DNA of 64,000 nt, taken from Nitrospirales bacterium. Lineage in GTDB: Bacteria > Nitrospirota > Nitrospiria > Nitrospirales > UBA8639. Position numbers and translations under genes: made by a program. Below, one piece after another: positions 239 to 52,474 of this stretch (its first letter is position 1; each line of letters begins with the position of its first letter). The stretch spans positions 1-64,000 of the forward strand of contig JAJDBP010000002.1 of the NCBI GenBank assembly GCA_029261295.1, in the 5' to 3' direction. The notes under the pieces were generated by a model. It saw nothing but the letters and a program-made list of their open reading frames with translations. It searched no databases and was not told where the DNA came from.

Positions 239-1528
239 ATGCCAGAAGTTTATAATTGGCAACTAGGCCGAAAGATGCTGTATCCCTATGAGGAACGGCA
301 TCCAAAGTGGCAGTTTGCATTTGTGTTCAATATTAATCGATGTTTGGCGTGTCAAACTTGTTCAATGGCAGATAAGTCCACGTGGCTGTTCTCCAAAGGA
401 CAAGAATACATGTGGTGGAACAATGTGGAAACGAAGCCTTATGGTGGGTACCCACAGTTCTATGATGTGAAAATCACGCAGCTCATCGAGCAAGTGAATC
501 CAGGCGGACAGGTGTGGAATGTGCGGGTTGGCCGCAAACACCATGCACCGTATGGCGTGTTTGAAGGGATGACCATTTTTGATGCTGGTGCCAAAATTGG
601 CCAAGCAGCAATCGGGTATATCCCAACTGACCAAGAATGGCGTTTTGTGAACATCTACGAAGATACGGCGACCTCGATGCGAGCCATCGTGGAAGGCATC
701 GATAAAACCGGGTTCACAAAAGAAGAACCATGGAAAATGCAAGGCAGCAGCTTGCCTGAGCATGAAACCTATTTCTTCTATCTTCAACGCATTTGTAACC
801 ATTGCACCTATCCTGGTTGCTTGGCAGCCTGTCCAAGAAAGGCCATTTATAAACGGCCTGAGGACGGCATTGTCTTGATTGACCAAAACCGTTGCCGTGG
901 TTACAAAAAATGTGTGGAGCAATGCCCGTTCAAAAAGCCAATGTACCGAGGAACCACTCGGGTCTCGGAAAAATGTATCGCTTGCTATCCTCGGGTTGAA
1001 GGGAAAGATCCTTTAACTGGTGGAGAGCCAATGGAAACACGTTGTATGGCAGCGTGCGTCGGGAAAATCCGGCTCCAAGGCTTGGTCAAAGTCGGCGATG
1101 ACGGGTTGTGGGCGGAAGATCGTTGGAATCCGTTGTATTATGCCATTCGTGTGGAACAAGTGGCCTTGCCACTCTACCCACAATGGGGCACAGAGCCCAA
1201 TGGATTCTACATTCCACCACGACAAGCTCCGCGTGGCTACATCCGCCAAATGTTTGGCCCGGGTGTGGACAATGCGATTGAGAAGTATTTAGTGCCAAGC
1301 CGGGAATTGTTAGCGGTGCTCCAACTCTGGAGAGCCAGCCAACAGATCATCTTCCGGTATGACGTCATTCCTGGTCCGAAAGTGTTCGAAACCCAAATTC
1401 ACGGTCGTAAGTTTGAGATGTACAACGACACGGTCTTGGGCTTCAACAAGTCGGGCAAAGAGGCCGTCCGGCAGCAGGTGGAAGAGCCAATTTATATCCG
1501 TCCAGCAGAACGGGTGAACTGGCTGTAA
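239..1528 (+). CDS. nxrB: Nitrite oxidoreductase beta subunit NxrB
   Basis: This is the electron-transfer subunit of nitrite oxidoreductase. It passes electrons from the molybdenum site in NxrA through a chain of Fe-S clusters. The 429-residue protein has four cysteine groups: C35/C38/C41, C186/C189/C194/C198, C219/C225/C229 and C246/C249/C269/C273. This is the pattern of the DMSO-reductase-family beta subunit, with one [3Fe-4S] and three [4Fe-4S] clusters. The N-terminus (MPEVYNWQLG, then CLACQTC) is the recognisable Nitrospira type. The start is an ATG behind a strong GGAGGAAAT site. The gene follows nxrA and ends 31 bases before a strong terminator, so nxrAB form the end of a transcription unit. 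No signal peptide is visible, as expected because export depends on NxrA. Confidence 0.97.
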   Translation: MPEVYNWQLGRKMLYPYEERHPKWQFAFVFNINRCLACQTCSMADKSTWLFSKGQEYMWWNNVETKPYGGYPQFYDVKITQLIEQVNPGGQVWNVRVGRKHHAPYGVFEGMTIFDAGAKIGQAAIGYIPTDQEWRFVNIYEDTATSMRAIVEGIDKTGFTKEEPWKMQGSSLPEHETYFFYLQRICNHCTYPGCLAACPRKAIYKRPEDGIVLIDQNRCRGYKKCVEQCPFKKPMYRGTTRVSEKCIACYPRVEGKDPLTGGEPMETRCMAACVGKIRLQGLVKVGDDGLWAEDRWNPLYYAIRVEQVALPLYPQWGTEPNGFYIPPRQAPRGYIRQMFGPGVDNAIEKYLVPSRELLAVLQLWRASQQIIFRYDVIPGPKVFETQIHGRKFEMYNDTVLGFNKSGKEAVRQQVEEPIYIRPAERVNWL

Positions 1529-1559
1529 ACGGCGCCAAAAGGCACCGTTTCGGTGAGAG

Positions 1560-1593
1560 CAGGGGGCGACAGATGTCGCCCCCTGTTTTTTTT
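1560..1593 (+). terminator. Rho-independent terminator of nxrAB
   Basis: An 11-bp perfect stem (CAGGGGGCGAC pairing with GTCGCCCCCTG) with loop AGAT is followed by a run of eight T. It begins 31 bases after the nxrB stop codon. It is a textbook intrinsic terminator and isolates nxrAB from the next gene. Confidence 0.93.
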
Positions 1594-1785
1594 GTGCTGG
1601 TAGACTTAAGGGGTAATTTTTCTATTTTATATATAAGATTCTTAAGGAAAAATGGCAGTTCATTCTTGTAGAGGATTAAACCTTTGAAAAAACAACAAAA
1701 TTTGTTTTGAATTGTTTCAAATGCCTGATACAATTAATACTTGGAAGATTACTTTCATGTTTGGTGCCTAGAAAATTAAGGTGAC

Positions 1786-2121
1786 GTGAATCAATCATTT
1801 GCATCAAATGTTGAGGGTCCTTTTGCTGCGCAAGGCGTCCCTTTTTCTCAAATAATCACTAAGGGGGAAATTCCCCCGAAATATCTAGAAAGCGATTATA
1901 TAATGCACCAATTTGTTGAAAGATTGGTTCATTACGTCCTGAGTGTCCCACAAGGGTCTTTTTCTATGCCAGAATTGGGGAAATTATTAGAAATAATGGA
2001 TCCTATTCATCAGGTGTTCTTCTTTAAAAGGTTAAAGGAGAATAGTCCCAGCAGTTTAAAGCAGTTTGCCCCGTTATATTATGGGTTTATGGCCGAATTT
2101 GATTCCCTCCTTTTTACCTAA
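1786..2121 (+). CDS. Hypothetical protein, 111 aa
   Basis: I do not recognise this family. The protein is soluble, without a signal peptide or membrane segment, and is rich in aromatic residues in its second half. The start is a GTG preceded by an AAGGTGA-like site. An upstream AT-rich stretch of about 190 bases between the nxrB terminator and this start could hold its own promoter. Its position next to nxrB may be coincidental, because the terminator separates them. Confidence 0.6.
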   Translation: MNQSFASNVEGPFAAQGVPFSQIITKGEIPPKYLESDYIMHQFVERLVHYVLSVPQGSFSMPELGKLLEIMDPIHQVFFFKRLKENSPSSLKQFAPLYYGFMAEFDSLLFT

Positions 2122-49168: not shown

Positions 49169-50764
49169 TTACGGAAGCAATCCTTGCGTATTCTGTGTGA
49201 CTAATGGTGCGACCTGGTTGATTCGATCGATCATGGGTTCAACGGTTGAGCTCACCACGTCATAAAAATGTCCTGGGAAAAGGCCCAAGATAATGCTACA
49301 TGCGATCAACAGGATAAGAGGCATTCTATCGATCCAATTTTTGGCATCGGATGTATGGGCAAATTCAGGGTCCAATTTCCCGTAAAACAGGCCTCGCATC
49401 ATTTTGAACATATAGGCCATTGTGAGCACGATCCCTAGAATGGCTACCAGAACTTGAAAAGGGTATTTTTCCCAACTGCCCACAATAATCATGATCTCGG
49501 CAACAAAGTTTATTGTGCCAGGCATACCAATGGATGCCATGCAGCCTACAATAAATGCGCCGGCAATAAACGGCATTTTTTCTGAAAGTCCACCGAGTGA
49601 AGGAATGTCACGTGAGTGTGTTTGGTCATAGACCCAGCCGGCCATCGCAAACAACATGCTTGTCGCTAAAGCATGGGCAAACATATAAATGACGGCTCCC
49701 GATAGACTGATATAACTCAACGCTGCCATGCCTAAGAAGATATAGCCCATGTGGCTCGAACTGGAGTAGCCAATGACATACTTCGTGTCTTTGGCAAAAT
49801 ACGATACGAGTCCGCCATAAATAATTGAGCCAATACAGAGGACGGCTGCAACCCACATCCATTTATGAGTTGCTTCAGGAAGAATTTCAAAGGCTACACG
49901 AATAATTGAAAAATGGCCTAATTTCATGAGGACGCCAGCATGCAACATACTGGTAGCGGCTGGGGCGGCGGCATGGCCGACGGGTGACCACGAATGCAAC
50001 GGCCAAATGGGGGCAATCGACGCGAATCCGATAAAGATGAGAAACCAGATAATGTTCGACATCGTATCGGTAAATTTGGCTTGTTCTCGTAGGACCAAAA
50101 TGTCGAAGGTATGCAATCCGGACATATGGTAGATCAGTAAAATGCCCATGAGTGCCATCACGGCGCCAGCTGACAAGAAGAGAGTCAGTTTCATCGCCGC
50201 ATATTCTTTGCTGTTTGAGCCGAAATTGAAGATAAAGTCGACTGAATCGCGAAGCTTGAGGCCTTCGGGGTCGGTCATGGAGAGATACCCTTTGGTATGG
50301 CTTCCCCAGACGCCTAGCAACAAGTACATGGGCAGCACGGACATTTCATAAAAGAAATAGAGAAAGAACAGATCCAGGGACATAAAGACCCCGATCGTTG
50401 CGGCTGCGAGGATGAGGAGGAAGATATAAAATTCTTTGGTCCGGTCTTTGATGTGCCATGAGACGAAAATGCCTGCGAATAACAAAATAGCTGACGCAAA
50501 GACTAATGGCCCCCCAATGCCGTCTACACCTACATAAAAGGCAATGCCAAGTTCCTCGGACCAGGCGAATCGCTGGACAAATTGGAAGCCGCCTTTTGCG
50601 GGGTCATATGCGAAGAAAATATAAAACGAAGCTAAAAGACTAATGCCGGCAGATATGGCGGCGGTCATCCGCACCATCAATTCCTCTTGCCGGGGAATAA
50701 AGATTAAGGCGATGGCCCCAAGGAAGGGCGCAAACAGAATGATTAGTAAAGAATATTCACCCAT
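49169..50764 (-). CDS. nuoM: NADH-quinone oxidoreductase subunit M (copy 1)
   Basis: A 531-residue proton-channel subunit of complex I. The family motifs SMLHAGVLMKLGHF, IIYGGLVSYFAKDTKYVIGY and YSSSSHMGYIFLG (channel Lys and His) are present. It begins 4 bases upstream of the end of the second nuoM copy's unit (50768), which shows tight operon packing. Two nuoM genes in tandem are the hallmark of '2M' complex I. This copy is closest to the usual NuoM. Confidence 0.95.
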   Translation of the reverse strand: MGEYSLLIILFAPFLGAIALIFIPRQEELMVRMTAAISAGISLLASFYIFFAYDPAKGGFQFVQRFAWSEELGIAFYVGVDGIGGPLVFASAILLFAGIFVSWHIKDRTKEFYIFLLILAAATIGVFMSLDLFFLYFFYEMSVLPMYLLLGVWGSHTKGYLSMTDPEGLKLRDSVDFIFNFGSNSKEYAAMKLTLFLSAGAVMALMGILLIYHMSGLHTFDILVLREQAKFTDTMSNIIWFLIFIGFASIAPIWPLHSWSPVGHAAAPAATSMLHAGVLMKLGHFSIIRVAFEILPEATHKWMWVAAVLCIGSIIYGGLVSYFAKDTKYVIGYSSSSHMGYIFLGMAALSYISLSGAVIYMFAHALATSMLFAMAGWVYDQTHSRDIPSLGGLSEKMPFIAGAFIVGCMASIGMPGTINFVAEIMIIVGSWEKYPFQVLVAILGIVLTMAYMFKMMRGLFYGKLDPEFAHTSDAKNWIDRMPLILLIACSIILGLFPGHFYDVVSSTVEPMIDRINQVAPLVTQNTQGLLP

Positions 50765-50767
50765 AAC

Positions 50768-52474
50768 TTAATTCCGAACGGGAATGTTGAAAAAGTCCAC
50801 CAGCTGCGTTCTCGCCCCTTTGTCGTGCTCCCGTACTAATGTGTACGCTCCGCTCGCCAAAGAGGCTGCGGCCTTGCTGGATGAAACTTTTTGATCATCC
50901 CTTAATAGGCTTTCATTTGAAAAATTGCTTTGTCTATGAGACGGAATACTATCCTGTGCTGTGGCTATACCGGGTTCTAACCGTTCAACAACTGCTTGTA
51001 CCGATCCATTCATTATTCGCAAAAATGGAGAAGGATAGAGCCCGATCCAGAAAATCATAATCGAAAGGGAGGCCCCAATGGCCCATTCCCGAGTATTTAA
51101 ATCAGGGATCACCGCTGGCAAACTTTCTTTCAAGGGTCCAAAGATGGCTCGCTCGTAAAACCAGAGGAAATAGGCCGCCGCAAAAATCACGCCTGTGACT
51201 GCAATGGCTCCATACAGCCACCAAGCTTGAAAGACGCCAAGGAGAATGAGAAATTCACCAACAAATCCATTTGTCCCTGGTAACCCAATTGAGGCCATGC
51301 CAATAATGAGTAAGAAGATGGCTAACAGTGGCATTTTCTTTGCCAGGCCCGTGCATTGACGAACATCCGTATGTCCTAATCGTTCGTACATAAATCCGGC
51401 TAAGAAGAATAATCCGGCCGTACTAAAGCCTAAGTTAATCATGGTAAGCAGACTTCCCTGGATGCCTTGGAAATTCAACGCAAACAGTCCGATCACGACA
51501 AACCCCAAATGACTAATGCTGCTGAAGACGAGTAACCGGCGAAAGTCAGGCTGAATAATGGCGACGATGGCTCCGTAGACAACCGCGGCCAGTCCAAGTG
51601 TCATGAGGATTGCTACGACCGTTTCGTTTCGGGAAGCATCTGGGAGTAACGGCATCGAAAAACGAAGGAAGCCGTATGTGCCCATTTTGATTCCGGCAAA
51701 CATGACCGACATTTGAATCGGTCCTTGTACCAGTGCATCCGGGAACCAGGAATGAAAGGGGAATATCGGTGCTTTAAAGGCCAGGCCTAGGAAGATAAAC
51801 CAGAAAATCAAGAGTTGTTGGCTGAGGGGAATCTGTACGGAGAGTAGATCGATAAAATCAAAGCTATAAACTTGCTTGGCTTCAAAGTAATTGAGGCTCA
51901 GGAGGCAAAATCCTACTAACATGAACACGCTGCCAAGCAGGGTATAGAGGACATATTTCAATGCAGCATAGTGGCAATCTTCCCCAGGCCCCCATAATTT
52001 AATCAGGAAGTAGCTGGGTATGAGCATGAGCTCCCAAAAGACAAAAAAGACGATCAAATCGATGGAAGCAAAAATTCCCATGAACGTGGCTTCCAAAGCC
52101 AAAATACTCATGAAAAAAGCTTTGGGTTTAAGGGTGACTGAATCCCATGAATAGAGGATGAGTAGCACCGTCAAAAAGGCTGTGAGACCCAGGAAAAGAA
52201 CACTGATGCCATCAACTGCCAAGTGATAACTAATGCCAAGAAAGGGAATCCATTCATGCCGTTCAGCGAATTGCATGGCGGCTGTATCTGGCACAAAGAG
52301 TATCAACATCATGGCCGCTACGAACATTTCAATGCTGGCTATTCCGAGCGTGGCCTTACGTACCTGTGCAGGGTCTTTCAAACCCCAGACGGCCAACGCA
52401 CCCAATAATGGGAAGAAGGTCAGAAAAGTCAGAATGGGAAAGCCGAATGAAAGTTCTTCTTGCATAGGAATCAA
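50768..52474 (-). CDS. nuoM: NADH-quinone oxidoreductase subunit M (copy 2), with an odd tail
   Basis: A 568-residue second NuoM-like subunit. Family motifs include PIFPFHSWFPDALVQGPIQM (proton-channel region), QPDFRRLLVFSSISHLGFVV and GLPGTNGFVGEFL. After the last membrane segment, the final 60 residues or so are hydrophilic. Their last 40 (ending LVREHDKGARTQLVDFFNIP) are encoded by a repeat-like DNA segment (50786-50894), suggesting the tail comes from an inserted element. An extra antiporter subunit would raise the number of protons moved per electron pair. Overlap and spacing are tight on both sides. Confidence 0.92.
   Translation of the reverse strand: MIPMQEELSFGFPILTFLTFFPLLGALAVWGLKDPAQVRKATLGIASIEMFVAAMMLILFVPDTAAMQFAERHEWIPFLGISYHLAVDGISVLFLGLTAFLTVLLILYSWDSVTLKPKAFFMSILALEATFMGIFASIDLIVFFVFWELMLIPSYFLIKLWGPGEDCHYAALKYVLYTLLGSVFMLVGFCLLSLNYFEAKQVYSFDFIDLLSVQIPLSQQLLIFWFIFLGLAFKAPIFPFHSWFPDALVQGPIQMSVMFAGIKMGTYGFLRFSMPLLPDASRNETVVAILMTLGLAAVVYGAIVAIIQPDFRRLLVFSSISHLGFVVIGLFALNFQGIQGSLLTMINLGFSTAGLFFLAGFMYERLGHTDVRQCTGLAKKMPLLAIFLLIIGMASIGLPGTNGFVGEFLILLGVFQAWWLYGAIAVTGVIFAAAYFLWFYERAIFGPLKESLPAVIPDLNTREWAIGASLSIMIFWIGLYPSPFLRIMNGSVQAVVERLEPGIATAQDSIPSHRQSNFSNESLLRDDQKVSSSKAAASLASGAYTLVREHDKGARTQLVDFFNIPVRN
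50786..50894 (-). repeat. Imperfect inverted-repeat element at the 3' end of nuoM copy 2
   Basis: TTGAAAAAGTCCACCAGCTG (50786-50805) is an imperfect inverted match to GGCCTTGCTGGATGAAACTT (50869-50888) and its flank. The middle holds a GTAC-n4-GTAC core. The pattern 'AAAAAGTCC-CCAGC-TGCG … GCTGCGGCCTTGCTGGA' resembles a dispersed repeat I recall from Nitrospira genomes, which I cannot verify here. It codes for the last 40 or so residues of the second NuoM. Confidence 0.55.

Follow-up and report, generated by a model that had tools for sequence, protein, structure and literature searches.

The window, taken here as the whole 64,000 nucleotide stretch of Nitrospirales DNA that was analysed, contains two adjacent genes encoding NuoM subunits of complex I. 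The first of these, nuoM2 (50,768-52,474, reverse strand), encodes a 568 amino acid product that matches the NDH_I_M family (TIGR01972; Bitscore: 506; cut-off: 263.8). The second, nuoM3 (49,169-50,764, reverse strand), begins 3 nt beyond the nuoM2 stop codon. Complex I with two NuoM subunits is described for Nitrospira in the available extracts of two reports (PMC6606698; PMC10579370).

Codon-level comparison with its closest counterpart (L031, in a second genome) and with relatives of shorter NuoM2 places an insert of 129 nt, corresponding to 43 residues, at 50,777-50,905 (reverse strand). The insert is in frame, free of stop codons and located two codons before the stop, with the last two codons (RN) and the stop (50,768-50,776, reverse strand) lining up with the 3′ terminus of nuoM2 in the short relatives. 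The insert has preserved its reading frame, and the spacing of 3 nt before nuoM3 is likewise maintained. A few codons immediately 5′ of the insert also differ from those of the relatives, and that boundary is approximate. The last 45 or so residues of NuoM2 are hydrophilic by reading, and a Pfam search with the last 90 residues returned no family at E <= 1, in agreement with a preliminary description of this DNA, in which a tail of about 40 residues had been called hydrophilic and atypical. That description had assigned the repeat-made end to 50,768-50,900; a repeat does lie there, although this span also takes in the two older codons and the stop. The tail counts as coding insofar as its frame is open and read through; the peptide is a predicted one, and any function of it putative. 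An AlphaFold2 model of NuoM2 built from 16 sequences was set aside (mean pLDDT: 47; pTM: 0.28).

Structure, distribution and mobility of the repeat

The insert consists largely of one copy of a dispersed palindromic repeat of about 122 bp (50,780-50,902, forward strand), delimited by BLAST and covariance-model matches. Its 16-nt left terminal arm (50,781-50,796, forward strand) is 81% complementary to the right terminal arm (50,886-50,901, forward strand), and the sequence reads GTAC-n6-GTAC at the centre (50,833-50,846, forward strand), a spacing which corrects the n4 given previously. Folded as single-stranded DNA, the segment 50,775-50,905 reaches -24 kcal/mol, compared to -12.9 (sd 2.35) for shuffled sequences (z: -4.7), and none of 200 shuffles folded as well, bearing out the imperfect inverted repeat noticed earlier. 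Across the 14 repeat copies from which a covariance model (R1) was built, compensatory changes occur in 16 of the 39 predicted pairs. No Rfam match to 50,500-51,200 was found at E <= 1. A longer variant of the repeat carries about 20-34 nt more inside; at L014, L016, L018 and L019 this variant (141-156 nt) has an additional internal hairpin-like stretch.

A BLAST search of the window's own genome with 50,775-50,905 recovered the nuoM2 site and 18 other places at E <= 1e-9, ruling out that the segment is unique in the genome. The covariance model yielded 25 matches at E <= 0.01, two of which represent the opposite strand of another match, leaving 23 places (22 at E <= 0.001; weakest e-value: 0.0097). 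Furthermore, the repeat is present in all twenty genomes of the genus, with 14 to at least 150 matches per genome, and in 71 of the 198 genomes of a phylum-wide sample (E <= 1e-5, stricter filters). Fourteen copies taken from other Nitrospirota families show the same palindrome with different arm tips. The likeness to a repeat of Nitrospira genomes, noted in the preliminary description, is thus upheld, and the search for many non-coding copies that it had proposed came out in its favour, with numerous copies in this genome and its relatives, mostly outside long frames.

Among the 23 loci of the window's genome, the nuoM2 copy is the only one covered by a frame of more than 114 amino acids, while one other copy overlaps the start of a 513 amino acid frame by 40 nt. 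The repeat has 82 matches in genome G002; seven of the 62 examined have a covering frame of at least 120 amino acids, these frames being putative genes, and no clear interior insertion was apparent by reading. Long covering frames elsewhere (e.g. 381, 409, 331 and 715 amino acids) were judged by eye and not counted as captures; in ten such places that were viewed, the repeat mostly seems to precede the gene's conserved region. In-gene capture of the repeat thus looks rare, and the nuoM2 copy appears to be the exception. The NuoM2 frame is open in 49 of 94 copies, where about 31 would be expected; since many of the copies are near-identical, no bias of the repeat toward open frames is claimed. 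In four genus genomes (L218, L219, L220 and L215) a copy seemingly occupies a matching position close to the beginning of a shared gene, and these copies group in a tree of the 94 copies.

Palindromic repeats are usually deemed extragenic, while here one encodes the C-terminus of a core subunit of the respiratory chain. Events of this kind are already known, as in-frame repeat capture is described in Rickettsia and in enterobacteria in the extracts available (PMC3733652; PMC10969869; PMC2759123). The Rickettsia palindromic elements (RPEs), with 44 in-gene insertions in R. conorii, are read in frame inside genes (PMC10969869; PMC3733652) and resemble the repeat in kind: each is a palindrome of roughly 100-150 bp (about 122 nt here) placed in frame within a conserved gene. 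RPEs are, however, very often found in genes, whereas the in-gene copy is exceptional for the repeat of the unrelated phylum Nitrospirota (1/23 loci in the window's genome; 7/62 examined copies with a covering frame in G002). The enterobacterial RU-1, RU-2 and RU-3 repeats, small mobile sequences (ERIC-like, 103-168 bp), lie mainly between genes and contain open frames that can be joined to neighboring genes (PMC2759123), and by this description are similar to the window's repeat in size, intergenic bias and the joining of open frames to genes. They belong to other bacteria, and the abstract makes no mention of repeated capture at a particular gene end.

Movement is implied by the near-identical copies found at different places in G002 and by relatives whose site is empty, and the repeat is on these grounds presumed to be mobile. 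In the preliminary description a mobile palindrome was thought to have become coding sequence in complex I; the dispersed repeat and the open frame stand, while mobility is deduced and the peptide and its function are putative. The repeat possesses terminal inverted repeats like those of MITEs, but a target-site duplication was not detected in 45 copies, the longest flank matches of which, with exact boundaries uncertain, were not above those of permuted flanks. Searches of Y1 neighbors, end motifs and fetched places established no mobiliser. A Y1 (RAYT-like) transposase gene is flanked by copies at one of 32 Y1 loci, L284. There, within 803-2,006, the Y1 gene (1,174-1,866, reverse strand) lies between a longer variant and a degenerate copy. 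The four Y1 matches of the window's genome have no copy beside them, and a RAYT mobiliser is as such unsupported in this genome, the L284 arrangement elsewhere being suggestive. The repeat resembles REP/RAYT systems in forming many-copy extragenic palindromes, and perhaps in the placement of this one genus Y1 gene between two copies, but differs in the absence of copies beside the Y1 genes of the window's genome and in the case of G001, where 32 matches to the repeat contrast with a lack of any Y1 match. It also differs in size, REP sequences being given as 20-40 nt in the extract available (PMC3733652), compared to about 122 nt.

An end-motif search of two genomes and the reading of 15 fetched places identified one transposase-like frame between end motifs (L256). 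Two end motifs enclose this frame (384 amino acids; 1,591-2,952 of this G002 locus), which from its look we take to be similar to an IS110-family transposase. It is perhaps an insertion into a repeat copy.

The insertion site in related genomes

The best 80 of 294 NuoM2-related loci found were compared. By the covariance model, the repeat is present in NuoM2 of the window and of L031 and in no other among the 80 related loci. A tail conserved in distant NuoM proteins is ruled out by this distribution (1/80 loci). The window and L031 each contain 129 extra nt at the identical position, before the last two codons. In fifteen of the sixteen next-closest loci (L032-L047) NuoM2 is 517-520 amino acids long, compared to 568 in the window, and the shorter tails that the preliminary description had anticipated in relatives are thus present. 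The sixteenth, L041 (469 amino acids), begins at a contig edge, and L049 runs off its contig. Within the genus, NuoM2 was found at E <= 1e-150 in 17 of the 20 genomes, and all twelve ends read among the other sixteen are short, this reading covering those other than L117, L121, L124 (unparsed) and L131. Across the phylum, NuoM2 ends differ in both length and sequence.

We consider it highly probable that the repeat inserted once at the nuoM junction, was read through, was kept by tolerance and coupling, and then drifted. A copy of the approximately 122-bp Nitrospirota repeat would have entered once, in the common ancestor of the window's genome and L031, at the junction of the adjacent nuoM genes and two codons ahead of the nuoM2 stop. 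With a net 129 nt being a multiple of three and free of stops, the insert would have been read through, adding 43 residues before the old stop, which would have remained 3 nt ahead of the next start codon. It may have been retained because the NuoM2 end past the conserved part accepts almost any sequence, and because read-through would leave the two nuoM genes closely coupled. The tail residues would thereafter have drifted under little constraint.

Repeats and hairpins at other NuoM ends

Fifteen NuoM2 proteins from other lineages, picked by eye, have long and unusual ends (527-549 amino acids). The DNA of one such end, that of L078, recurs at eight further places in its own genome, six of them over 47-54 nt, and was found in 11 of the 12 genomes searched. 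The L062 end gave 15 matches in its own genome, comprising itself, its own other strand and 13 matches at about eleven places; the non-self matches are 71-100% identical, and matches occur in 4 of the 12 genomes. Partial samples of the respective genomes gave non-self matches for five of ten ends (L062, L065, L066, L071 and L087, the last over 16 nt) and none for L070, L072, L074, L090 and L096, while nuoM2 core segments and shuffled sequences had no matches in the same samples. These samples are small, with many of them adjoining other repeat hits, and serve as support and not as a measure of frequency. Other Nitrospirota nuoM2 ends thus carry unrelated dispersed repeats in two cases by whole-genome search, with partial support for more. 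The tails of L078, L065 and L096 do not match the 14 phylum copies, ruling out that they represent the window's repeat.

Tracts with a period of seven are present in 10 of the 15 long ends and in none of 64 others, L031 among these, while periods of 5, 6, 8, 9 and 10 are absent from all fifteen. Tandem heptanucleotide repeat elements in both intergenic and intragenic places are described for Geobacter metallireducens in the extract available (PMC2700814). They resemble these other NuoM2 ends rather than the window's repeat, but have different units, and the passages on them do not speak of repeated capture at a particular gene end. Ten loci contain 15 further heptamer tracts, eight within the 3′ end of nuoM3 and seven at other gene junctions, the genes being named by reading. 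The nuoM2 gene is therefore not the sole bearer of such an end, which favors tightly packed junctions in general. In L062, L065, L070, L071, L074, L078, L087 and L090, heptamer tracts are found inside the nuoM3 3′ end, beside the nuoN start.

The ends also differ between close relatives. L066 and L072 share 97.5% identity in their nuoM2 cores and 98.4% in the downstream DNA, while their ends share only the first ~24 nt, and the nuoM2 ends of L070 and L074 are unrelated despite 96.3% core and 95.5% downstream identity. On a quick tree of 80 cores, long ends require at least eight changes, six of which are forced by well supported branches (shuffled labels: 14.9), in a count that does not distinguish gains from losses and in which L078 is labelled short. 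No description of this repeat, of repeats at NuoM ends or of recurrent replacement of complex I gene ends was found in the open-licence PMC literature. What is new is that the ends of complex I genes turn over repeatedly.

Hairpins near the stop codon are stronger in long ends than in short ones (15 and 63 loci; p: 0.006, or 0.0005 once four loci that share one type are left out; p in a control window: 0.51). It is conceivable, and put forward here tentatively, that the 3′ ends of nuoM2 and nuoM3 are slots in which unrelated palindromic and heptamer repeats have been repeatedly captured in frame and swapped, with the hairpin at these tightly packed junctions either useful or always tolerated. 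The window's repeat would then be one of several occupants, and entirely different ones could be carried by genomes whose nuoM2 cores are 97.5% identical. Were this pattern true, nature would have run the experiment of placing hairpins between closely spaced genes many times at the nuo junctions, and the C-termini annotated for these NuoM proteins would need cautious reading.

The same observations bear on whether the hairpin of the window was itself kept for a role in the message at the nuoM2-nuoM3 junction, where a stem-loop might protect or separate transcripts or tune how nuoM3 is translated. The coding tail would in that case be a by-product. The hairpin strength in the long ends of other lineages and the heptamer tracts at several nuo junctions are consistent with such a role, as are the compensatory changes, which concern the repeat family and not the nuoM2 copy. 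However, most loci have no such hairpin (z below -3: 0/64 loci with ends of up to 527 amino acids; 3/16 with longer ends), and the same pattern is expected from tolerance alone, and we consider this role unlikely.

Ancestry and divergence of the insert

In a tree of 94 of the 97 repeat matches, the inserts of the window and L031 pair (96/83), on few columns and with the bootstrap unsettled. This pairing makes a single ancestral insertion, common to the two, likely on the sequences compared; it is supported, not proven. By raw distance the nearest copy to that of L031 is the window's (0.171), but several copies at other loci, such as those of L158 (0.163) and L161 (0.164), are equally close or closer to the window's copy. 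These distances are ambiguous, and a single origin is therefore argued from the pairing in the tree, from the identical site of insertion and from the codons that the two genes have in common just before it. The ambiguity would also suit an ancient NuoM2 tail that seeded the repeat, or two independent insertions at one site. The tail is, however, absent from 79 of the 80 loci by the covariance model, the repeat is widespread in genomes whose NuoM2 is without it, and the two inserts pair in the tree, making either history very improbable.

Over the 45 codons of the insert end, the window and L031 differ by 25 substitutions, while neither indels nor stop codons have arisen (dS: 0.35; dN: 0.175). 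The dN/dS ratio of the tail is about 0.5, compared to 0.03 for the nuoM2 core, and nine of the 25 changes are synonymous, which is not different from the neutral expectation (p: 0.16). The repeat-encoded tail thus evolves close to neutrally. That the repeat-encoded residues function in complex I and are selected as protein is scarcely credible. The frame has indeed stayed open in both genomes through these substitutions, but the tail changes as neutral sequence would and lacks a Pfam match, and shuffling leaves any given frame open in roughly one copy out of three, a figure to be read with the likeness of many copies in mind. The empty site in close relatives, a second genome that shares the insertion and a rate of change that can be measured provide a probe of how far an essential membrane protein tolerates alteration of its C-terminus.

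The dS between the window and L031 amounts to 0.37 for nuoL, which is similar to that of the insert, 0.76 for nuoM3, 0.81 for nuoN and 0.84 for nuoK, rows for other loci that matched paralogues being left out. The body of nuoM2 (50,906-52,474) is a mosaic relative to L031, with a core dS of 1.55 that is far above the 0.35 of the insert (Fisher p: 7e-5), a difference which, under a single insertion, calls for a replacement of the gene body. The nuoM2 body was probably replaced by another allele in one lineage, with the end retained, as judged from these sequences. The L031 nuoM2 body is closer to those of L036 and L041.
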